Virus record (IMG/VR): IMGVR_UViG_3300044681_000488 | Span: 1 to 34,169 of that record | Reading direction: 5' to 3' (one strand) | Source: a virus | DNA: 34,169 nt | Part shown: piece after piece, positions 1,421 to 29,864 of the stretch | Layout of the letters: each line of letters starts with the position of its first letter | Numbering within the stretch: the stretch's first letter is position 1 | Program-made: the position numbers and the translations under genes | Notes under the pieces: generated by a model | What the model saw: the letters and a program-made list of their open reading frames with translations, nothing else | Database searches by the model: none | What the model was told of the DNA's origin: nothing

Positions 1421-4414
1421 ATGCCAAACTATAAAGGATATGAGCCAGTAGTTACTCCAGATCTGCAAAACAATAACGCAGATGCTGCAGCTGCTGCTGC
1501 AAAAACTTCGGCTGATTCTTTTACAGAAATAATAGATCTTCCGCTTGTAGCTTATAAAAGATATCGAATTGCTGCTGCATATAAATATGAAGACCCAGAA
1601 ACAAAACAAATTTCTTACAGCGACTATTCTCCGTGGCTTGATACTACGTTTGATATTCCAAATAAAACATTACCCGTCACAGATGTTGTTTTAACTCCAG
1701 GGATAAAGTCTTACGGAATTAAATTCTCGCTTCCGTCTGCAAGCGAACATGCTGACATTATAATATTTGAAAGTTTGACTGGAAGTTTTTCTGGAGAGCA
1801 GTACATAGTTTATACTGGAACATCTACATCTATTACAGTTCCAACTTCAGATTTTTCTCCAAGATGGGTTTTAATAAGAACTAGAGATCAATGGGAAGAT
1901 GCTAACAAGAGTGATGTAATAGCAGGCCCAGTAACTCCACAGAATGCGGACCCAGATACAACAACTCCTCCGACTGCCCCAACTGGAGTTTCTGTTACAG
2001 GATTTTTAGATTCAAGAGACGTGACTGGATTCAAGGCTGGAATAACAGCTTCTTGGACTGCAAAGACTGACGATAACACTTCTGGGTATGTAATAAGATG
2101 GACAACACAGAATCCAGCAACAACACAAAACCCAGTTTGGGAATATGGTCAAGTTGAAGGAAAAGCAACTACAACATTTACAATTACAGGATTAATACCT
2201 AACACTTTATATTATTATCAGGTAACAGCAAAAAGTCCGTACAACGCTCTATCCTGGGCTTCACCGCAATCTGGAACAGTCGGTCCAATAATAGATTCAA
2301 CCATGCCTTCAGACGTATGGGCACAATTGAAGTCTGTTATTTCAATTGGTGGTAAAACATCAGATTTATTTAAATTTGGAACTGGAATATCTCAAGATAT
2401 AAATACTTCCACAACAACAACTCCGTCTATGACAGCAGGAACCTATAGCGGAATTATTCTAAATAAATCTACAACAAATGTAGGACATAATTACTGGCTA
2501 AATACTGGACAGTTTAGAGTTGGTAGCTCAACAGCATTCCTTTACTGGGACGGATCCGATCTATATACTACTGGTAAAATTAATGCAACAGGCGGAGTAT
2601 TTTCTGGAAACGTACAAGTATCAACAGGAATAATATATGCTGGAGCATCACCAGATAGCGGTGCCAGAGTACGTATGGGATCAACTGGAGTATTTGCATA
2701 TGATGCAAATAATAATCAAGTATTTTCAGTTTCTTCAGCAACAGGGCAACTTGATGCAAGAAAAGGTTATATTGGTGGATGGTATATCGATGGAACAGCT
2801 CAAACAACAGGAAGCATTTCTAAGGGCGGTACCATACTTGACTCAAGCGGAAATATAACATTAGGTGACACAACTGGAACTCTCTCTTCTATTGTTAAAT
2901 TAAGTTCAACAGACGCAACATATAGATTATGGGTTGGAAGTCAAACAGCTTCTAATGCCCCATTCAGAGTTACAAAGTCTGGCGTTCTGTATGCAACAGG
3001 TGCAGTGTTTACTTCTTCTTCAATTGATGGATATGCTACAACTGCGATAACCACTGGACTGAATAATAGGTTAACAACAGTAGAAGGAAGTTATGTTTCA
3101 AATACAACACTAAATAGTAGCGTAGCAACCAAAAATGCTATTTTTGTTCAGAGTACAACCCCAACTGCAACAAAAGCAGGAGACATATGGATCCATGACG
3201 TTACTGGCGTATTAAAAACTTGGACTGGATCATCTTGGACACAAAGAACCGATACAACATATGCAACTAAAGTTGCTCTTGACACAAAATTAGAGGCAGG
3301 CGGATATGCAATTGCAACTGCAAATAATCAGATTACCGAAATTACTTCTAATGGTATAGTTATAACACCAGGTACGTTTAAAATTAATACAAGTCAGGGT
3401 ACCACACCTTCAACTGGTGCTTATGTAATTTTAAACTCTGCTGGACTTACAGCCTATAATGGATCAAAAACAACTTTTGCAATTGCCTCAAATAACGGAA
3501 ATGCGGCATTTAGCGGTAACATTGATTCATCATCCATTACGGGTGGAACAATTGTTATTGGGGCTGATGAAGGCAGCACTGGATACATAAACACATCTGC
3601 TTCAAAGGGCGGAATAACAACTATGGTTATTAAGGCCATAGGACATGCTAGCACATCAAACTCTGGATGGACAACATCTTGCTACCCTTGGGCAGATGCA
3701 ACTTACAGCCTAGGAACTAACTCGTTTAGCTGGAACAATCTGTATCTATCTAGCAATGCATATTTTGCAGATGGAACAACGTATTATATTAATTCAAGTG
3801 CTGACGCATATTTAAACGGATATGGAGTATCTGGAGGCTACGGAGTTACCTCAGACTGGTCTCCAAGAACCGATAACGCTAGATCACTGGGTATTTCTAC
3901 TAGAAGATGGGCAGATGTTTGGGCAGTAGATACAACAGTAAACTCATCAGATGAAAGACTTAAAACAGATATAGATTATTCCGATTTAGGTTTGGAATTC
4001 ATTAAACTATTAAGGCCAGTTTCTTATAAATGGAAAGAGACGGGCTTTGAAGAAGTAATGGAAGAGTCAACAAAAGAAATAGATGTTGAGGGTGATCTAA
4101 AAGAAGAAATTACTGTTCTTGTTCCAAAAGTAATTGGTGTAGATGAAAATGGAAAAGATATTATAGAAACTGTTTCAAGGCCAGGACTAAGAAAACACTA
4201 TGGCTTTGTTGCACAAGAGGTAAAGCAGGTCCTAGACCAAATTGGAGTCGGGGATAATTTTGCTGGTTGGGTTCTCGATGACCATAATGATCCAGACTCT
4301 AGGCAGAATTTAAGATATGCTGAGTTCATATCGCCTCTAGTTAGGTCTGTACAAGAATTGTCTGATATGGTAGAATATCTACAACAAGAAGTAAACACAT
4401 TGAAGGGTGTATAA
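1421..4414 (+). CDS. Tail fibre / tailspike with fibronectin III domain and S74 chaperone
   Basis: A 997-residue fibre. Residues about 170-290 form a fibronectin type III module introduced by a Pro/Thr-rich linker (TTPPTAPTGVSVTG). Residues about 370-840 carry repeated Gly/Ser/Thr beta segments (such as ATGGVFSGNV, GGWYIDG and TRRWADVWA), typical of trimeric fibre shafts. The C-terminus is a peptidase S74 intramolecular chaperone. The SDERLK motif at residues 843-848 supplies the family's Ser and Lys, and YGFVAQEVKQVL follows near residue 930. In known members this domain drives trimerisation and then cuts itself off just before the Ser. A charged insertion of about 45 residues separates the YKWKE and YGFVAQEV blocks. 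The protein should act at the virion tip in host recognition. Its stop overlaps the next start (TAATG). Confidence 0.9.
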   Translation: MPNYKGYEPVVTPDLQNNNADAAAAAAKTSADSFTEIIDLPLVAYKRYRIAAAYKYEDPETKQISYSDYSPWLDTTFDIPNKTLPVTDVVLTPGIKSYGIKFSLPSASEHADIIIFESLTGSFSGEQYIVYTGTSTSITVPTSDFSPRWVLIRTRDQWEDANKSDVIAGPVTPQNADPDTTTPPTAPTGVSVTGFLDSRDVTGFKAGITASWTAKTDDNTSGYVIRWTTQNPATTQNPVWEYGQVEGKATTTFTITGLIPNTLYYYQVTAKSPYNALSWASPQSGTVGPIIDSTMPSDVWAQLKSVISIGGKTSDLFKFGTGISQDINTSTTTTPSMTAGTYSGIILNKSTTNVGHNYWLNTGQFRVGSSTAFLYWDGSDLYTTGKINATGGVFSGNVQVSTGIIYAGASPDSGARVRMGSTGVFAYDANNNQVFSVSSATGQLDARKGYIGGWYIDGTAQTTGSISKGGTILDSSGNITLGDTTGTLSSIVKLSSTDATYRLWVGSQTASNAPFRVTKSGVLYATGAVFTSSSIDGYATTAITTGLNNRLTTVEGSYVSNTTLNSSVATKNAIFVQSTTPTATKAGDIWIHDVTGVLKTWTGSSWTQRTDTTYATKVALDTKLEAGGYAIATANNQITEITSNGIVITPGTFKINTSQGTTPSTGAYVILNSAGLTAYNGSKTTFAIASNNGNAAFSGNIDSSSITGGTIVIGADEGSTGYINTSASKGGITTMVIKAIGHASTSNSGWTTSCYPWADATYSLGTNSFSWNNLYLSSNAYFADGTTYYINSSADAYLNGYGVSGGYGVTSDWSPRTDNARSLGISTRRWADVWAVDTTVNSSDERLKTDIDYSDLGLEFIKLLRPVSYKWKETGFEEVMEESTKEIDVEGDLKEEITVLVPKVIGVDENGKDIIETVSRPGLRKHYGFVAQEVKQVLDQIGVGDNFAGWVLDDHNDPDSRQNLRYAEFISPLVRSVQELSDMVEYLQQEVNTLKGV

Positions 4415-4563
4415 TGGAAAAACAGGAATTAGTTATTCAAGCATTGCAGGAAAGAATTGGGCAATTGGTCTCACAATATGAGACACACATAGCAGTTCTA
4501 CGTGCAGAAATAACAAGCTTAGCAAATTCGCTTGCAGAAAAACAAGAGGATAACAAGGAGTAA
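4414..4563 (+). CDS. Small coiled-coil protein after the tail fibre
   Basis: A 49-residue ORF (MEKQELVIQALQERIG...) whose ATG overlaps the fibre stop as TAATG. It ends 2 nt before the next gene. Nearly the whole protein is an amphipathic helix with leucines or isoleucines at heptad-like spacing (L6, I9, L11, I15, L18, then L29, I33, L36, L40), which predicts a coiled coil. Tight coupling to the fibre gene suggests a fibre chaperone, capping helix or assembly factor, but this is inference from position. No family is recognised. Confidence 0.65.
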   Translation: MEKQELVIQALQERIGQLVSQYETHIAVLRAEITSLANSLAEKQEDNKE

Positions 4564-4565
4564 AA

Positions 4566-5015
4566 ATGGCAATTACAGTAGACCCAATGCAGATTAATGA
4601 TGGAGATCCAGTCACATCTGATTTGCTAAAAACAATTGTAAAAAATATTAATTTAATTGCAAAGGGTGAGCAGTCATCTGCTGTATCTATTTTAAATACT
4701 ACAGAAACAACTACTGTAAAAAGTGCAAATACTGTTATCTCTAAAAAGGTAGCAAAGAATGTCAAGCCAACAAACAAGCCTTCAGCAAGCGGAACATGGA
4801 CTTTCCCAGGAACTGGATTTACGTCTATCCCAGCATGCTGGATACAGGTTTATGGAAAATCAGGACAAGCAGAAACATTGCTTAGGGTTCATCCAGTTAT
4901 CACAAGCGTTGATGAAAAGTCAATGTCTTACGAGATAAGATCTGGTGCAGGTGCAACAGCTGGCTCTGTTGATTTTATGCTATACGCAGCAGGAACATTA
5001 GCTGCTAGTAGTTAA
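4566..5015 (+). CDS. Putative small virion structural protein
   Basis: A 149-residue protein. An N-terminal segment (residues 1-50) includes the phrase INDGDPVTSDLLKTIVKNIN, which resembles the short head of phage fibre or baseplate proteins. A Thr/Lys/Asn-rich linker leads to a compact beta domain (about residues 75-145) with GTWTFPGTGFTSIP and a hydrophobic, Ala-rich end (FMLYAAGTLAASS). It is the last gene of the tail block, 2 nt after the coiled-coil gene and just ahead of the terminator at 5064. A head-binding or fibre-tip accessory role is plausible but not established. Confidence 0.55.
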   Translation: MAITVDPMQINDGDPVTSDLLKTIVKNINLIAKGEQSSAVSILNTTETTTVKSANTVISKKVAKNVKPTNKPSASGTWTFPGTGFTSIPACWIQVYGKSGQAETLLRVHPVITSVDEKSMSYEIRSGAGATAGSVDFMLYAAGTLAASS

Positions 5016-5021
5016 CATCTA

Positions 5022-5049
5022 TTGACACAATTTTTTAATATGCTACACT
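5022..5049 (+). promoter_or_regulatory. Sigma-70-like promoter at the tail/early boundary
   Basis: TTGACA at 5022-5027 is followed after 16 nt by TACACT at 5044-5049, preceded by TGC (extended -10). The predicted start near 5056 falls inside one hairpin and just before a second, terminator-like hairpin. Transcripts would therefore run into an attenuator before the metallophosphoesterase gene at 5107. Confidence 0.55.
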
Positions 5050-5060
5050 TTTAGTGTAGC
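5042..5060 (+). repeat. 8-bp perfect inverted repeat overlapping the -10
   Basis: GCTACACT (5042-5049) and AGTGTAGC (5053-5060) pair perfectly across a TTT loop. The left arm contains the -10 hexamer TACACT, so the site is either an RNA hairpin of the upstream transcript or an operator-like palindrome. It has no U-tract, so it is less likely to terminate on its own. Confidence 0.55.
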
Positions 5061-19177: not shown

Positions 19178-19720
19178 ATGAGTGAAATAGAACCATCTGT
19201 CCATTTTGACAGAATGAATAAAGTAGTCGAAGAGCTACTAAAAGGAAATACGCCAGGACAGATAGCCACGATAACGGGCTTCAATAGAAAAGAAGTTGTT
19301 GAGCTAATTGATGAGTGGAAGTCTGTTGTTCACAATGATAGCAACATGCGTGATAGAGCCAGAGAAGCTATCTCAGGGGCAGATCAGCATTACGCCATGC
19401 TTATTCAAGAAGCATGGAAAACTGTTCAGCAGGCTGACCTTCAAGATGCCTTAAATGTAAAAGCAACAACGCTTAAGCTTATTGCAGATATAGAGGCAAA
19501 AAGAATTGGAATGCTTCAGTCTGTTGGCGTTTTAGAAAATACTGAAATTGCAGCACAAATTGCTGAGACAGAAAAAAAGCAAGAGCTTCTAGTAGGTATT
19601 TTAAAAGAAGTAACAGCTCAATGTTCTCATTGCAAACTAGAAGTTGCAAAAAGATTGTCTCAAATTACTGGAGTAGTAGAGGCAGTTGTAATCCATCCAG
19701 AGGTTGCAGATGGAATTTGA
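19178..19720 (+). CDS. Probable terminase small subunit
   Basis: A 180-residue protein immediately upstream of the large terminase. Residues about 17-50 form a helix-turn-helix (LLKGNTPGQIATITGFNRKEV), used by small terminases to recognise the packaging site. Long helices (about 60-130) would form the oligomer core. A Cys pair (CSHC) near residue 150 is unusual. The call rests on the HTH, size and position, not on a family signature. The next start lies within its last 11 nt. Confidence 0.68.
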   Translation: MSEIEPSVHFDRMNKVVEELLKGNTPGQIATITGFNRKEVVELIDEWKSVVHNDSNMRDRAREAISGADQHYAMLIQEAWKTVQQADLQDALNVKATTLKLIADIEAKRIGMLQSVGVLENTEIAAQIAETEKKQELLVGILKEVTAQCSHCKLEVAKRLSQITGVVEAVVIHPEVADGI

Positions 19721-21512
19721 TTTTAATGATTTTATTGATATTCTTGATGGAGAAGAGTTTGAGGAAAGGCCAGTAGACCTTAGGACATTTGTAACTGATC
19801 CAAACTATTTAGGTCTTCCTCCTCTATCAGATTATCAATATACATTAATTGAAAAGTCTTCTCAGATTTATAAAGAGTCCACACTGATTAAGCTTTTTGG
19901 AGAAGTAGAAGGTAAGCGCATGTTTAAGCAAACATGCAATGAAGTAATTGCTCAGCTTGGTAAGGGTTCTGGAAAAGACTATACGGCTACAATTTCTGTT
20001 TCCTACATGGTTTACTTGTTGTTATGCTTAAAAGATCCAGCATCGTATTATGGCAAACCTCCAGGCGACACAATTGATATATTAAATATTGCTATAAATG
20101 CTCAGCAAGCAAATAACGTATTCTTTAAAGGATTTAAAACAAGAGTTGAGCGCTGCCCATGGTTTATTGGAAAGTATGAGCCTAAGGCGTCTGAAATAAA
20201 GTTTGATAAAAACATAACAGTACACTCAGGCCACTCACAAAGAGAAGCCTGGGAAGGTTATAACGTTATTACTGTTATTCTAGATGAGATTTCAGGTTTT
20301 TCAATAGAGAGCACCTCAGGTCACGACCAAGCAAAAACAGCTGATGCTATATACGACATGTATCGTGCCTCTGTTATTTCTCGTTTTCCAGACTACGGAA
20401 AAGTTATCCTACTCTCTTTTCCACGTTTTAAAAATGATCCAATTCAAAAATTTTATGAATCTGTTATTGCAGAAAAAGAAACTGTGTTGAGATCTGAAAG
20501 ATTAAAGATGGATGAGGATCTTCCAGATGGCACGGATGGTAACGAAATAACAGTAGAGTGGGAAGAAGATCATATTATTTCTTATGCCATTCCTAAAGTT
20601 TATGCTATTAAGAGACCGTCTTGGGAAGTAAACCCAACTAAAAAAATTAATGACTACAAGGTAGAATTTTATAAAAATATGCCTGACGCTTTAGGGCGAT
20701 TTGCCTGCATGCCTCCAGAAATGATTGATGCTTTTTTTAAGTCTCGTGAAAAAATTGAAAAAGCTTTTAACAATACTGCAATAGCTGTTGACTCATTTGG
20801 TAGGTTAGAGCCATGGTTTGCTCCAGATCCAGATAAAGAATATTTTATTCACGTTGACCTTGCACAAAAACATGACCATTGTGCTGTATCTATGTCTCAT
20901 GTTCAGAAATGGGTAAACGTAAAGGTTACTGAAACTTATTCTCAACCAGCTCCTATAGTTGAGGTTGACGCAGTAAGATATTGGACTCCAACACCAGATA
21001 AATCTGTTGATTTTACAGAAGTAAAAGATTACATCTTGTCTCTTAGAACTGCAGGGTTTAAGATTAGACTATGTACATTTGACAGATGGAATTCTCACGA
21101 TATGATGCAGCAGTTAAAGCAGTATGGAATTAATACAGAAATTTTGTCGGTAGCGAAAAAACATTATGATGACATGGCGATGGTGGTACTGGAAGAACGT
21201 CTTCACGGTCCACATATTCCTTTATTGATAGATGAATTGTTGCAGCTTAAAATAATGAAAGATAAGGTAGACCACCCAAGAAGAGGTTCGAAGGACTTGG
21301 CGGATGCCGTATGCGGATCTATTTTTAATGCAATCAGTATGACAAGACCAAATATGAATCAAGAGATAGACATTCATACTTACGAATCAATGTCTTTTGA
21401 TGATGATTTTGGCAAAGAAGCAGACGGAGAGGTGCATCATTACAATATGATTCGTGCCCCAAGAATGCCAGAACATTTAAAAGAAGCAATGGATAGGATG
21501 CAAATACTATGA
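19710..21512 (+). CDS. Terminase large subunit (packaging ATPase/nuclease)
   Basis: A 600-residue packaging motor. I choose ATG 19710, which has AGAGG at 19699-19703 with a 6-nt spacer, over TTG 19704, which has no room for one. The ATPase shows a Walker A variant LGKGSGKD (Gly84 to Asp90) and a Walker B with Asp192-Glu193 (VILDEIS). The RNase H-like nuclease shows Asp383 (FIHVDLAQKHDH) and the pair Asp529/Asp532 (KDLADAVCG). It should translocate DNA into the prohead and cut it. It overlaps the small Cys-rich gene as ATGA. It lies far from the tail genes in the window, and no portal or capsid gene is present here. Confidence 0.9.
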   Translation: MEFDFNDFIDILDGEEFEERPVDLRTFVTDPNYLGLPPLSDYQYTLIEKSSQIYKESTLIKLFGEVEGKRMFKQTCNEVIAQLGKGSGKDYTATISVSYMVYLLLCLKDPASYYGKPPGDTIDILNIAINAQQANNVFFKGFKTRVERCPWFIGKYEPKASEIKFDKNITVHSGHSQREAWEGYNVITVILDEISGFSIESTSGHDQAKTADAIYDMYRASVISRFPDYGKVILLSFPRFKNDPIQKFYESVIAEKETVLRSERLKMDEDLPDGTDGNEITVEWEEDHIISYAIPKVYAIKRPSWEVNPTKKINDYKVEFYKNMPDALGRFACMPPEMIDAFFKSREKIEKAFNNTAIAVDSFGRLEPWFAPDPDKEYFIHVDLAQKHDHCAVSMSHVQKWVNVKVTETYSQPAPIVEVDAVRYWTPTPDKSVDFTEVKDYILSLRTAGFKIRLCTFDRWNSHDMMQQLKQYGINTEILSVAKKHYDDMAMVVLEERLHGPHIPLLIDELLQLKIMKDKVDHPRRGSKDLADAVCGSIFNAISMTRPNMNQEIDIHTYESMSFDDDFGKEADGEVHHYNMIRAPRMPEHLKEAMDRMQIL

Positions 21513-22223: not shown

Positions 22224-24368
<2,145 letters not shown>

Positions 24369-24604: not shown

Positions 24605-25267
24605 ATGGAAAAAATAATACATAAACAAGATGTAGTAGAATACCAATCCGTATTTACTAAAGAGGAATGTTCTAATTTTATATCCTATTGGAACAGCCTA
24701 GATGATTGGATGCTTTCTTGTTTTCCAGGCATGTATACCATTTCTGGCAAAAAGCCAAACGAGGGCGCTGGAAAAGAACTTGTATTTCAAGCTAAAGACA
24801 AAATGCATAAACTTGCAGAAGAAGTGTTTAGTAAAAAATTAAAGCCATTAACTCTTAGCACACATAAGTGGACCCCAGGAGCTTGGGCAGCAGATCATGC
24901 AGATAATGCCGAACTTGATGGAACCCCTAATGCATGGAAAGAAAATAAACTTGTTGCAATCGTCTATTTAAACGACGATTATGAAGGCGGAAAATTAACA
25001 TTTAGAGATCATAAAATAGGAATAAAACCAACTACTGGGAATGTAATAGTGTTTGGAGTTGGAATAGACAACGTACACGCAGTTACAGAAATATTGGGGG
25101 GAGACAGATATACAATGATGTGCTCCTTTGATTTTGAAGATTCGGTTTATGATGAAGACCTGCAGGCTCAAAAAGAATCTGTTTATGGAGCCCAGGAAGA
25201 TTTAAGAAAACAGTGGGCTGAGGGAATATTGATGCCTAAAACTACCGCCACTGACCCAACAATTTGA
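24605..25267 (+). CDS. Fe(II)/2-oxoglutarate oxygenase, prolyl-4-hydroxylase-like
   Basis: A 220-residue oxygenase with a complete iron and cosubstrate site: His98-x-Asp100 (AADHADNAE), His158 (NVHAVTEI) and Arg168 (GGDRYTMM). The strand order, with VAIVYLNDDYEGGKLTF before the second His, is that of prolyl-4-hydroxylase-like enzymes. These use Fe(II), O2 and 2-oxoglutarate to hydroxylate protein or small substrates, and are found in several large phages. The substrate is unknown. The gene appears to have a leaderless promoter and is followed by another one before dps1. Confidence 0.82.
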   Translation: MEKIIHKQDVVEYQSVFTKEECSNFISYWNSLDDWMLSCFPGMYTISGKKPNEGAGKELVFQAKDKMHKLAEEVFSKKLKPLTLSTHKWTPGAWAADHADNAELDGTPNAWKENKLVAIVYLNDDYEGGKLTFRDHKIGIKPTTGNVIVFGVGIDNVHAVTEILGGDRYTMMCSFDFEDSVYDEDLQAQKESVYGAQEDLRKQWAEGILMPKTTATDPTI

Positions 25268-25754: not shown

Positions 25755-26552
25755 ATGCAATACATTGAGGTCATCGAGTTTCCAGGTTTTGATGCAATAA
25801 AGGAAAATTTTCCATACTATAAGCAAAAATTTTTAGATTCAAAAATTTTAGCTTTTAGAAATGCTCACGCAGATTATTCTTTACAAGAGGACATAACAAG
25901 GTTTTTTGGTGATAAGCTAGACTGGTATCCAAATAATACAGTACCAAATAGATCAGACTACATAGAGGATCACCATAAGCATATGCTAGGACCAACAATT
26001 GCAACAAAAGATGAATGGATGCTAGGTTGGCATATTGAGTGGGTAGAAAACGAAAACGATTCGTTTAGAGCTGGCATATGGAACATGACTAAGTTTGATT
26101 GCGAGCCAGACACGGGTAACACATGTTTTGTAGATATGACTAGTTTATATAATTCATTGAAGCCAGAAGAGCAAGAATTTCTTGACAAATGTGTAGTTTT
26201 ATTAGATGCTCAAGGTAGAAATGTTCAGTATTCTTATATTAAAAAGCACTGGATTACTGGTGAAAAAACATTGAGGACCTTTTGTGGCAATTATGGATTT
26301 ACTACTTTAAAAGAATACGACGGAAGACATTTTACAGATGGTGAATTAAAAGAGTTTGAAAGAATACACGGTCAAATAATTGATAACGTGTGGAACAATA
26401 AAGATATAAGAATGGTACATCAATGGCAAAAGGGTGATCTATTGATACCAGATTTGTTTAAGCTTGCTCATGCAGTAACAGGCGGGTTTGTTCAAAATCA
26501 AAGACAGTTAGACGGAATGTTTGCAAAAGCAAACCCGTGGTCATTTAGATAA
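25755..26552 (+). CDS. TauD/TfdA-like Fe(II)/2-oxoglutarate dioxygenase
   Basis: A 265-residue enzyme of the TauD/TfdA type. The iron site can be read as His93-x-Glu95 (GWHIEWVE), with the distal His239 (KLAHAVTGG) and Arg250 (NQRQLDGMF) for 2-oxoglutarate. The segment TGNTCFVDMTSLYNSL matches the conserved region that follows the first motif in this family. Members oxidise small molecules such as taurine or betaine-like compounds, but the substrate here is unknown. An acidic Glu replaces the more common Asp in the facial triad. It lies between the two Dps-like genes and has a GGAAAG ribosome site. Confidence 0.76.
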   Translation: MQYIEVIEFPGFDAIKENFPYYKQKFLDSKILAFRNAHADYSLQEDITRFFGDKLDWYPNNTVPNRSDYIEDHHKHMLGPTIATKDEWMLGWHIEWVENENDSFRAGIWNMTKFDCEPDTGNTCFVDMTSLYNSLKPEEQEFLDKCVVLLDAQGRNVQYSYIKKHWITGEKTLRTFCGNYGFTTLKEYDGRHFTDGELKEFERIHGQIIDNVWNNKDIRMVHQWQKGDLLIPDLFKLAHAVTGGFVQNQRQLDGMFAKANPWSFR

Positions 26553-26563
26553 AAGAGGGTATA

Positions 26564-27040
26564 ATGAAAAAGAACGAATTAATTAAATCGCTACAAGAGT
26601 TTCAAGCTAACTCTGTAGTATTTGCACACCTAGTACACGGATTCCACTGGAATACGGAGTCTGTTTTAATGAGACAGTCTCGTATTGTTTATGAAGAAAT
26701 TTATAAAGATGCAGAAAATTCAGTGCACGAGGTTTCAGTATGGCTAAGAAGATTAAACGGTGAAGCTCCTTATACTCTAGAAGAGTTTACTAAAAATCAA
26801 ACATTGGGAAATGTAAAACCAGAGACTTACTGTGGAGTAGAGATGGCACAGCACCTTGTACCAATTAATCAAAGAATGATTGAGGATATTAAAGTTTTAG
26901 TTGAGCAAGCAATTGTTCATAGAGAGCACGGACTTGTTCAATTTTTATCAAATAGATTGGGTCAGCACCAGGAGTGGGATTGGTTCCTGCAGTCAAGCTT
27001 AAAGCTTCCGCCAAACCCATGGAAATCATTAAAGGATTAA
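26564..27040 (+). CDS. Second Dps-like protein (Dps2) with altered ferroxidase site
   Basis: A 158-residue paralogue of the upstream Dps. The shared blocks are HGFHWN, EIYKDAE, VWLRRL, EAPYTLEEF and a C-terminal WDWFLQSSL. At the ferroxidase positions only His28 is kept. The residues at +12, +27 and +31 are Arg40, His55 and Val59, where Dps1 has His, Asp and Glu. The canonical iron-oxidising site is therefore lost, unless other acidic residues (Glu45, Asp49, Glu51, Glu56) have taken over. It may form mixed shells with Dps1 or have a non-enzymatic, structural or DNA-binding role. The ribosome site is GAGGG, 5 nt before the ATG. The next gene follows after 3 nt. Confidence 0.78.
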   Translation: MKKNELIKSLQEFQANSVVFAHLVHGFHWNTESVLMRQSRIVYEEIYKDAENSVHEVSVWLRRLNGEAPYTLEEFTKNQTLGNVKPETYCGVEMAQHLVPINQRMIEDIKVLVEQAIVHREHGLVQFLSNRLGQHQEWDWFLQSSLKLPPNPWKSLKD

Positions 27041-27043
27041 TAA

Positions 27044-28096
27044 ATGCAATTAGATACAACTGTCAGCAATATATGTTTTGATGACATACTTTTACTGCCA
27101 TCTAGGTCAAACATAAAAAGCAGATCAAACGTAACTATTAAAAGTTTATTGGGTAACCCAAAAAATCCAGACGGAGTTATTGAGTTAGAAAACGCTTTTA
27201 TGACAGCACCGATGGAGTTTATTAATAGTAACAGGATGATAGAAGAAGTTACTGCTGCTGGCGGTATAGCATTTGTTCATAGGTTTATGTCATTAGAAAA
27301 AAGAATTGAGCAAATGGAGTATCAGATTCGCAATAACCCGTATTGGGACCGTGTGGGATTTTCTATAAATAATCAAGAAGCATCAGATAAGAATTTTATT
27401 GATAAGCTTATCAATATGAAAGTAAAGATTATTCTAATAGATACAGCATTTGGACATACCGACACAGCAATTTCTGCAGTAAAAGATCTTAGAAGCCTTT
27501 GCCCTTCTTCAGTACATATAATGTCTGGCAATGTTTCATCTTTTGAAGCCTATAGAGACCTTATGGAAGCAGGTGCAGATTCAGTGCGTGTAGGTATTGG
27601 AGGGGGTGCTGCTTGCACCACCAGAATAGTTACTGGTTTTGGACAACCTGTACTTTCTTCTGTTATTGACATTTATGAAAGAGTAAAAGAATCTTCAATA
27701 AATGGAATAATTTCTGATGGAGGAATTAAAAACAACGGGGATGCAGTAAAAGCTTTGGCAGCTGGTGCAAGTGCAATAATGATGGGTAATTTTTTTGCAG
27801 GACATGAAGAATGCGATAGAGATGGCAATGGCAATCTTGCTTTTAGGGGCTTAGCTTCAAGAGGTATACAGACTATGGATGGAGCCGTAGTGCCAGCAGA
27901 AAGACTGCATGTTGAAGGTGCGGAAGCAATTTTAACCAGCAGGGGTTCTGTAAAAGACTCTATTCAGCAGCTTATTAATAATATTAAAAGCGGAATGTCA
28001 TATTGCGGAGCAGAAAATTTAGATTATCTAAGAAAAGAATCAAGGTTTATTAAGGTTTCCCCTCAGTCAGCCCTAGAATCTAGTAGCAGAATTTAA
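27044..28096 (+). CDS. IMP dehydrogenase / GMP reductase family enzyme
   Basis: A 350-residue TIM-barrel enzyme of purine nucleotide metabolism. It opens with FDDILLLPSRS, as in the family. Later come SDGGIKNNGDAVKALAAGA and MMGNFFAGHEE (phosphate binding), a flap-like FRGLASRG, and a C-terminal SGMSYCGAENLDYLRKESRF block. The catalytic Cys191 lies in GGGAACTTRIVTG, where the family usually has G-x-G-S-x-C-x-T-R. There are no CBS domains, and the length fits GMP reductase or short IMPDH. Sequence by eye does not decide between making XMP from IMP and making IMP from GMP. It would tune guanine nucleotides during replication and is adjacent to dps2. Confidence 0.83.
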   Translation: MQLDTTVSNICFDDILLLPSRSNIKSRSNVTIKSLLGNPKNPDGVIELENAFMTAPMEFINSNRMIEEVTAAGGIAFVHRFMSLEKRIEQMEYQIRNNPYWDRVGFSINNQEASDKNFIDKLINMKVKIILIDTAFGHTDTAISAVKDLRSLCPSSVHIMSGNVSSFEAYRDLMEAGADSVRVGIGGGAACTTRIVTGFGQPVLSSVIDIYERVKESSINGIISDGGIKNNGDAVKALAAGASAIMMGNFFAGHEECDRDGNGNLAFRGLASRGIQTMDGAVVPAERLHVEGAEAILTSRGSVKDSIQQLINNIKSGMSYCGAENLDYLRKESRFIKVSPQSALESSSRI

Positions 28097-28695: not shown

Positions 28696-29103
28696 ATGTA
28701 CGAATACCGTGTAAAAAAATTACTTAGGGTAGTTGATGGAGACACAATAGATGTTGATATTGATTTAGGGTTTGACATATCCTTATCCAAAAGAGTAAGA
28801 TTGGCTGGAATTGATACTCCAGAATCTCGCACATCAGACAGATTTGAAAAATCTTTAGGCCTAGAATCAAAAGAGTATTTAAAGAACGCAATGAAAGACG
28901 CAGAAGTCATTGTTATTAAAACAGAGCTACCAGACTCTTCCGAAAAGTATGGAAGAATTTTGGGGTGGATATATATAGATAATCAAGAAAAATCAATTAA
29001 TGAAGTTATGATTGAAGACGGGTATGCTTGGTCATACATGGGAGACACTAAGGTCAAAGATTTTGCAGCCTTGGCAGCACAAAGAAAGAAAAGCGGTAAG
29101 TAG
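28696..29103 (+). CDS. Staphylococcal nuclease-like endonuclease (TNase)
   Basis: A 135-residue calcium-dependent nuclease of the SNase fold that cuts DNA and RNA. Catalytic residues can be placed as Arg35, Asp40 and Glu43 (RLAGIDTPE) and Arg87 (YGRILGWIY). The metal-site motif VVDGDTIDVD (Asp14, Asp16) lies near the N-terminus. There is no signal peptide, so it should act inside the cell, perhaps in breakdown of host nucleic acid. An AGGGAGAG ribosome site precedes the ATG. The stop overlaps the next start (TAGTG). Confidence 0.9.
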   Translation: MYEYRVKKLLRVVDGDTIDVDIDLGFDISLSKRVRLAGIDTPESRTSDRFEKSLGLESKEYLKNAMKDAEVIVIKTELPDSSEKYGRILGWIYIDNQEKSINEVMIEDGYAWSYMGDTKVKDFAALAAQRKKSGK

Positions 29104-29864
29104 TGATCATACAGATTATAGGGCTACCTGGCTCTGGTAAAACAGAACTAGCAAAAGCCTTAAAAGAACGCATTAATGCAATTCATTTAAATGCAGACGA
29201 AGTTCGTGCAACTGTAAATTCTGATTTAGGGTTTACTCCAGAAGATAGACTTGAACAAGCAAGACGAATGGGAGAGATGGCTCGCCTTATTGCAAAGCAA
29301 GGTGTTGCTCCAGTAATCGTTGATTTTGTATGCCCAACAGATGCTACAAGAGAGGCATTTGGAAAGCCAGACATCTTGGTGTATATGTATACGATATCTG
29401 AGGGTAGATTTGAAGATACAAATAAAATGTTTCAACCGCCTGCAAATTACGACATAGGTTTCCCAAGCCACCTACTTGACCCTAATCAAAAAGCTTCTAC
29501 AATCATAGATCAGTTTAGCCTGCATGATTGGTCAGCACCAACAACCCTAATGCTCGGAAGGTATCAACCATGGCACGAAGGTCATCATGCTTTATATGAA
29601 GAGGCTGGAAAGAGAACAAATCAGGTACTACTTGGGGTTCGCAATACGTATAACACAAGTGAAAAAGATCCACTTAAATTTGATGAAGTAAAAGAATATA
29701 TTGCTAAGGATGAATTTATGGATGGAGCGATGGTGCTAAGACTTCCTAATATAACCAACATAGTGTATGGGCGTGATGTGGGGTATAAAATTGAACAAGT
29801 AAAATTGGGGGATGAAATTGAAGCGATCAGCGCTACTCAAAAACGTAAAGAAATGGGTATCTAA
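29103..29864 (+). CDS. Fusion of APS-kinase-like P-loop kinase and HxGH nucleotidyltransferase
   Basis: A 253-residue two-domain enzyme that starts with GTG in a TAGTG overlap. Residues 1 to about 135 look like an adenylylsulfate kinase (CysC): P-loop GLPGSGKT at 7-14, then LNADEVRATVNSDLGF and the EDRLEQARRMGEMARL block typical of that family. Residues about 145-253 form a Rossmann-type nucleotidyltransferase with GRYQPWHEGH (His158 and His161) and a C-terminal ISATQKRK that matches the ISxTxxR motif. The transferase could be like ATP sulfurylase, NMN adenylyltransferase or a cytidylyltransferase. Domain order is kinase first. Whether it serves sulfate activation, NAD or another nucleotide product is open. 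Confidence 0.78.
   Translation: MIIQIIGLPGSGKTELAKALKERINAIHLNADEVRATVNSDLGFTPEDRLEQARRMGEMARLIAKQGVAPVIVDFVCPTDATREAFGKPDILVYMYTISEGRFEDTNKMFQPPANYDIGFPSHLLDPNQKASTIIDQFSLHDWSAPTTLMLGRYQPWHEGHHALYEEAGKRTNQVLLGVRNTYNTSEKDPLKFDEVKEYIAKDEFMDGAMVLRLPNITNIVYGRDVGYKIEQVKLGDEIEAISATQKRKEMGI

Follow-up and report, generated by a model that had tools for sequence, protein, structure and literature searches.

Dps mini-ferritins (PF00210), among them Thermosynechococcus Dps (2c41), B. subtilis MrgA (2chp) and H. pylori NAP, combine a four-helix fold with a short BC helix. In phages, the family is represented by Dps1-type proteins (phrog_3636, including the Dps of S-SRM01), which in many phages occupy a locus beside the terminase genes, and by prohead-protease-Dps fusions (A0A6J7XDU5, A0A6J7WPK9 and the L155 protein described below), in which a phage Dps domain is linked to a capsid maturation enzyme. 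Several cellular Dps paralogues with different tails are found in Streptomyces (DpsA, DpsB and DpsC; PMC3613396). Dps proteins without iron site are little studied, and none from phages was found in the papers searched.

The window analysed here, the whole 34,169-base virus record IMGVR_UViG_3300044681_000488, encodes two proteins related to these systems, referred to as Dps1 and Dps2 (Table 1). Streptomyces phages with genomes near 130 kb, of which one has been assigned to Stanwilliamsviridae, encode a terminase 60-63% and a DNA polymerase 56-58% identical to those of the window. Dps2 is predicted to have the four-helix fold and short BC helix in common with the Dps mini-ferritins, but is only about 20% identical to them, lacks their ferroxidase ligands and displays an invariant block (residues 80-102) and a C-terminal tail of its own. 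The phage Dps family, ancestral to Dps2 and sharing its terminase-side locus in many phages, differs from it by the retention of the ligands in the Dps1-type members and by the absence of the Dps2 tail. Compared with the L155 fusion, which has an iron site, Dps2 is a stand-alone protein encoded among enzyme genes. The Streptomyces paralogues resemble the present case by their multiple copies and varied tails, and no sequence link between these tails and that of Dps2 was found.

Table 1. Coordinates of Dps1, Dps2 and associated features in the window
Feature	Coordinates	Strand	Support and remarks
Terminase large subunit	19704..21512	+	PHROGs; fixed neighbour marking the Dps locus
Dps1, 149 aa	25292..25741	+	PF00210 (Ferritin) 51.2 bits; four ferroxidase ligands kept
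TauD-family 2OG-Fe(II) oxygenase, between Dps1 and Dps2	25755..26552	+	PF02668 39.7 bits
Dps2, 158 aa, Dps-fold, without ferroxidase ligands	26564..27040	+	PF00210 35.9 bits; predicted fold
Former ferroxidase positions of Dps2	26645..26740	+	H28 26645-26647; R40 26681-26683; E44 26693-26695; H55 26726-26728; V59 26738-26740
Dps2-specific conserved block, residues 80-102, TLGNVKPxTYCGVEMAxHLxPIN	26801..26869	+	Invariant C90, E93, H97; pN 0.061 vs pS 0.674
Dps2 C-terminal tail KLPPNPWKSLKD, residues 147-158	27002..27037	+	Nearly invariant in amino-acid sequence; pN 0.036, pS 0.794
GMP-reductase/IMP-dehydrogenase-like gene, 3 bp after Dps2	27044..28096	+	PF00478 247 bits; constant companion of Dps2

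Fold and ferroxidase positions of Dps2

Dps2 is confidently predicted to retain the Dps fold. The AlphaFold2 monomer model computed from the family alignment (mean pLDDT 90.1, pTM 0.85) contains the five Dps helices (residues 3-30, 34-63, 72-78, 91-118 and 122-145), with a tail of low confidence (mean pLDDT 53 over residues 151-158), and matches solved Dps structures of the PDB with TM values of 0.82-0.89 and Z values of about 21-23. The Dps1 model (pLDDT 94.1) shows the same helices. Dps2 can thus be placed among the Dps/mini-ferritins by the four-helix fold with a Dps-type BC helix of its model, as well as by homology and descent, its PF00210 score, like that of Dps1, exceeding the Pfam Ferritin cut-off of 24.5 bits and its sequence being nested in the phage Dps tree. 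The inter-subunit His, His, Asp and Glu ligands that characterize a ferroxidase Dps are not found as a full set in any of the 36 distinct Dps2 proteins, which are therefore classed as Dps-derived and not as ferroxidase Dps.

From the sequence of the window, it had been proposed that one paralogue keeps the ferroxidase site and that the other has lost it, with H28, R40, H55 and V59 of Dps2 standing in place of H26, H38, D53 and E57 of Dps1. The pairwise alignment reproduces these correspondences exactly, and the contrast extends to the families: the four ligands are present in 76/76 Dps1-type phage sequences and in 6/6 reference Dps, against 0/36 Dps2. In the Dps1-type set, these four columns have an entropy of 0.00 bits. 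The set was assembled from relatives of intact Dps, using patterns that contain both ligand His, so that retention of the His (not of the Asp and Glu) is partly selected for. The fifth canonical ligand, Asp67 of E. coli Dps, corresponds to Gly42 in Dps1 and Glu44 in Dps2; among the 76 Dps1-type sequences its column is occupied by G, E, S, L, A, K or Q and never by Asp, and Dps1 accordingly keeps four of the five ligands.

The former ligand columns of Dps2 are occupied by F/Y/H/W/V/Q at position 28, R/Q at position 40, H/M/D/L/N/E at position 55 and T/L/V/E/N/I at position 59. When the 158 positions of the protein are ordered by increasing entropy, positions 28, 55 and 59 come 145th, 148th and 152nd. 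Position 40 is Arg in 26 sequences and Gln in the remaining 10, and never His. Glu59 is retained in the early-branching L058, L028 and L032, the latter two having also kept His28, and Arg40 is already present in them. This pattern fits a stepwise loss of the ligands starting with the His at position 40.

Origin of Dps2 and its exchange with Dps1

All Dps2 sequences form a single clade (support 100/100) with a long stem (1.42) within the phage Dps radiation, and this clade groups with Dps1 of the window in a larger one (99/97). The tree topology shows that Dps2 descends from a ferroxidase-type phage Dps. In many phages, either a Dps1-type gene or Dps2 fills the same slot, between the terminase and a CHAP/Hsp20 block; in one large Dps2 subclade, the gene sits in a different neighbourhood. 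About seven changes between the Dps2 and Dps1-only states were counted on the terminase tree, four of them forced by supported branches, and pairs of phages with 95% identical terminases differ in this state. From these gene and tree comparisons, Dps1 and Dps2 are in most cases substitutes for one another at the position behind the terminase.

An intact Dps1-type gene was found together with Dps2 in seven of 50 Dps2 records, namely L058, L076 and five records closely related to the window, the two genes being adjacent in L058 and L076. The Pfam Ferritin search revealed no second ferritin in Dps2 records of 116, 120, 110 and 90 kb; since some Dps2 fall below the threshold of this search, it could overlook a second copy that is highly divergent, an intact copy scoring far above. 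A significant Ferritin match was lacking in 7/50 Dps2-encoding records, and in L076 Dps1 alone was matched. As many of the contigs are fragments, absences weigh less than presences in these counts.

Conserved regions of Dps2 and its companion gene

The Dps2 set was obtained by a profile search of IMG/VR, which returned 68 viral contigs and 36 distinct proteins with identities down to 64%. No match to Dps2 was found in the INPHARED phages, even at an E value of 5, and no relative was found in cellular genomes with the Dps2 profile patterns. The reading frame is open in 36/36 distinct sequences and the median dN/dS is 0.13. C90, E93 and H97 do not vary among the 36 sequences, where conservation at residues 88-94 is partly selected for because TYCGVEM was one of the search patterns, and also wherever they are readable in a second set gathered by the tail pattern alone. 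The tail was not among the patterns of the first search. Its synonymous codons vary freely with no sign of nucleotide-level constraint, which rules out such constraint as the source of its conservation; dN/dS is close to zero over the tail although synonymous changes are abundant there. A degenerate DNA pattern for the tail retrieved 65 stretches in IMG/VR, all belonging to Dps2-set contigs, and two stray matches, taken as chance, in 84,980 cellular genomes (257 Gb). Apart from these two, no tail was found on a non-Dps2 protein in either collection, and its confinement to the Dps2 contigs of IMG/VR makes it diagnostic for Dps2. Taken with the entropies above, the alignments show that conservation has moved in Dps2 from the ligand positions to residues 80-102 and to the C-terminal tail. 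The expectation that the altered subunit is specialised for something else is borne out by this displacement and by the strong constraint on the gene. DNA binding, one of the specialisations first suggested for it, receives no special support from the composition of the protein: Dps2 is less acidic than Dps1-type proteins without being basic (median net charge -2.5 versus -8), and its tail is Pro/Trp-rich, not Lys-rich.

A protein of the IMPDH/GMPR family (338-353 residues) is encoded directly after Dps2, at a distance of 1-4 bp in most phages with Dps2 at the terminase (TerL) locus. This GMP-reductase-like gene is present in 51/61 Dps2 records; the ten others all end less than 10 kb upstream of Dps2 and belong to a subclade whose GMP-reductase-like gene is located 13.5-17 kb upstream of Dps2. 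It is absent from 21/23 Dps1-only records, the other two having a GMPR-type gene elsewhere, with scores of 297 and 345 bits versus 217-263 for the complete copies of Dps2 phages. On the terminase tree it follows the Dps2 state in every independent pair, although the four supported pairs (p 0.125) cannot on their own bring the association to significance. Distance matrices revealed no co-evolution of Dps2 with this protein beyond the phage phylogeny (r 0.70, versus 0.70 for Dps2 and terminase). The catalytic Cys is intact in 25/25 copies examined (motif GGGAACTTR in the window); 24/25 lack the Arg-Tyr-Phe string of the IMPDH flap, and the window copy has no Arg-Tyr flap. Judged by known IMPDH and GMPR motifs, this points to GMP reductase chemistry.

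In the L036 subclade, the place of the GMP-reductase-like gene is filled by a radical SAM/SPASM gene, which starts 1 bp after Dps2 in L036 (5390-6388), L031, L034, L035, L038, L045, L053, L055 and L056; the GMP-reductase-like gene lies 13.5-17 kb upstream there where the contig reaches.

Possible roles of Dps2 and surrounding genes

The reading that we favour, and to which we would give slightly better than even chances, is that Dps2 is a neofunctionalised duplicate of a phage Dps that no longer oxidises iron and uses its tail to dock a partner. The sequences show that the ligand at position 40 is lost in every member and that the other ligands drift; under this proposal, Dps2 would no longer oxidise iron at the classical dimer-interface site. 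It would still assemble as a Dps-type oligomer, whose exposed tails and conserved helix-C block would dock one conserved partner, the likeliest candidates being the co-inherited GMP-reductase-like enzyme or a phage component from the same part of infection. A more specific version, in which the iron-storage shell has become a non-iron scaffold whose invariant C-terminal peptide recruits the GMP-reductase-like purine-salvage enzyme into one complex during infection, seems unlikely to us. Against docking in general, the tail may fold back on the shell and neighbouring genes may travel together without interaction of their products. Furthermore, a new metal site formed by C90, E93 and H97 would overturn the absence of a metal role. 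Such a replacement of the ferroxidase site by a site on helix C would agree with the invariance of the three residues and with their i, i+3, i+7 spacing, which would put them on one face of the predicted helix 91-118; we hold it to be quite unlikely, as invariance is just as complete at many adjoining residues that are not ligands, a pattern no less compatible with an interface, and C90 and E93 belong to a peptide used as search pattern.

By analogy with the targeting peptides of encapsulin cargo, the short, invariant C-terminal peptide, of low confidence in the model, might instead bring the Dps fold into the capsid and make Dps2 a virion or prohead protein. In many of these phages, Dps2 follows the terminase genes at a short distance, which would agree with this, and among the nearest viral models in BFVD are Dps domains of proteins named prohead protease. 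The 813-residue L155 protein (2610-5051) unites a Peptidase_S78 prohead serine protease with a TUDOR-like domain and an intact Dps domain. Fusions of this kind show a link between certain phage Dps domains and head assembly, but they do not place Dps2 there: the Dps domain of L155 has retained its iron site, being one of the 76 intact sequences, and is therefore not a Dps2. The named neighbours of Dps2 encode enzymes, no capsid gene having been seen next to it, and the neighbourhood differs in the large subclade mentioned above. A place in the virion appears fairly unlikely. Mixed shells of Dps2 with Dps1 or with a host Dps, comparable to those of L-chain with H-chain ferritin, had been raised in the original prediction and would be favoured by the predicted common fold and by the co-occurrence of both genes in the window and seven other records. 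As a general role of Dps2 this idea fails, since most Dps2 records, those of 90-120 kb among them, showed no Dps1 in the Pfam Ferritin search; the two states mostly replace each other. Dps2 may mix with host Dps, and mixed shells of either kind are on the whole very improbable. That Dps2 is a decaying gene or a copy degraded by chance, as the lost ligands alone might suggest, is hardly conceivable and is refuted by the 36 open frames, the low dN/dS and the low pN of the invariant tail.

The loss of the site in Dps2 arose once, is fixed throughout a broad family and is accompanied by a newly invariant surface, which makes the role of an iron-less Dps shell directly testable, and close phages carrying either an active Dps or Dps2 at the same locus are natural paired controls. 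In this group of uncultured phages, the lost iron centre and the almost unvarying tail suggest that a stress protein has been put to a new use by the viruses, as a part that binds something else.

Other genes of the locus deserve mention. In the window, Dps1 is flanked by two different 2OG-Fe(II) oxygenases (24605-25267 and 25755-26552), the first of which belongs to the largest cluster of neighbours in Dps2 contigs (86 members in 33 contigs). A full-family catalase-peroxidase, KatG, is encoded at 22329-24368 (NCBIfam PRK15061 1092 bits and TIGR00198 976 bits, both above cut-off), and KatG is also found near Dps2 in L024 (= L004), L032, L077 and L084. In the Dps1-only relatives L101 (3756-4894) and L102 (3756-4894), an AhpC-type peroxiredoxin and an AhpD-like (CMD family) gene lie beside Dps, which makes the region downstream of the terminase look like a hot spot for oxidative-stress genes with alternative cassettes. 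Further downstream in the window, the protein encoded at 29103-29864 is APS-kinase-like in its N-terminal part, and its C-terminal part is a nucleotidyltransferase resembling NMN adenylyltransferase.
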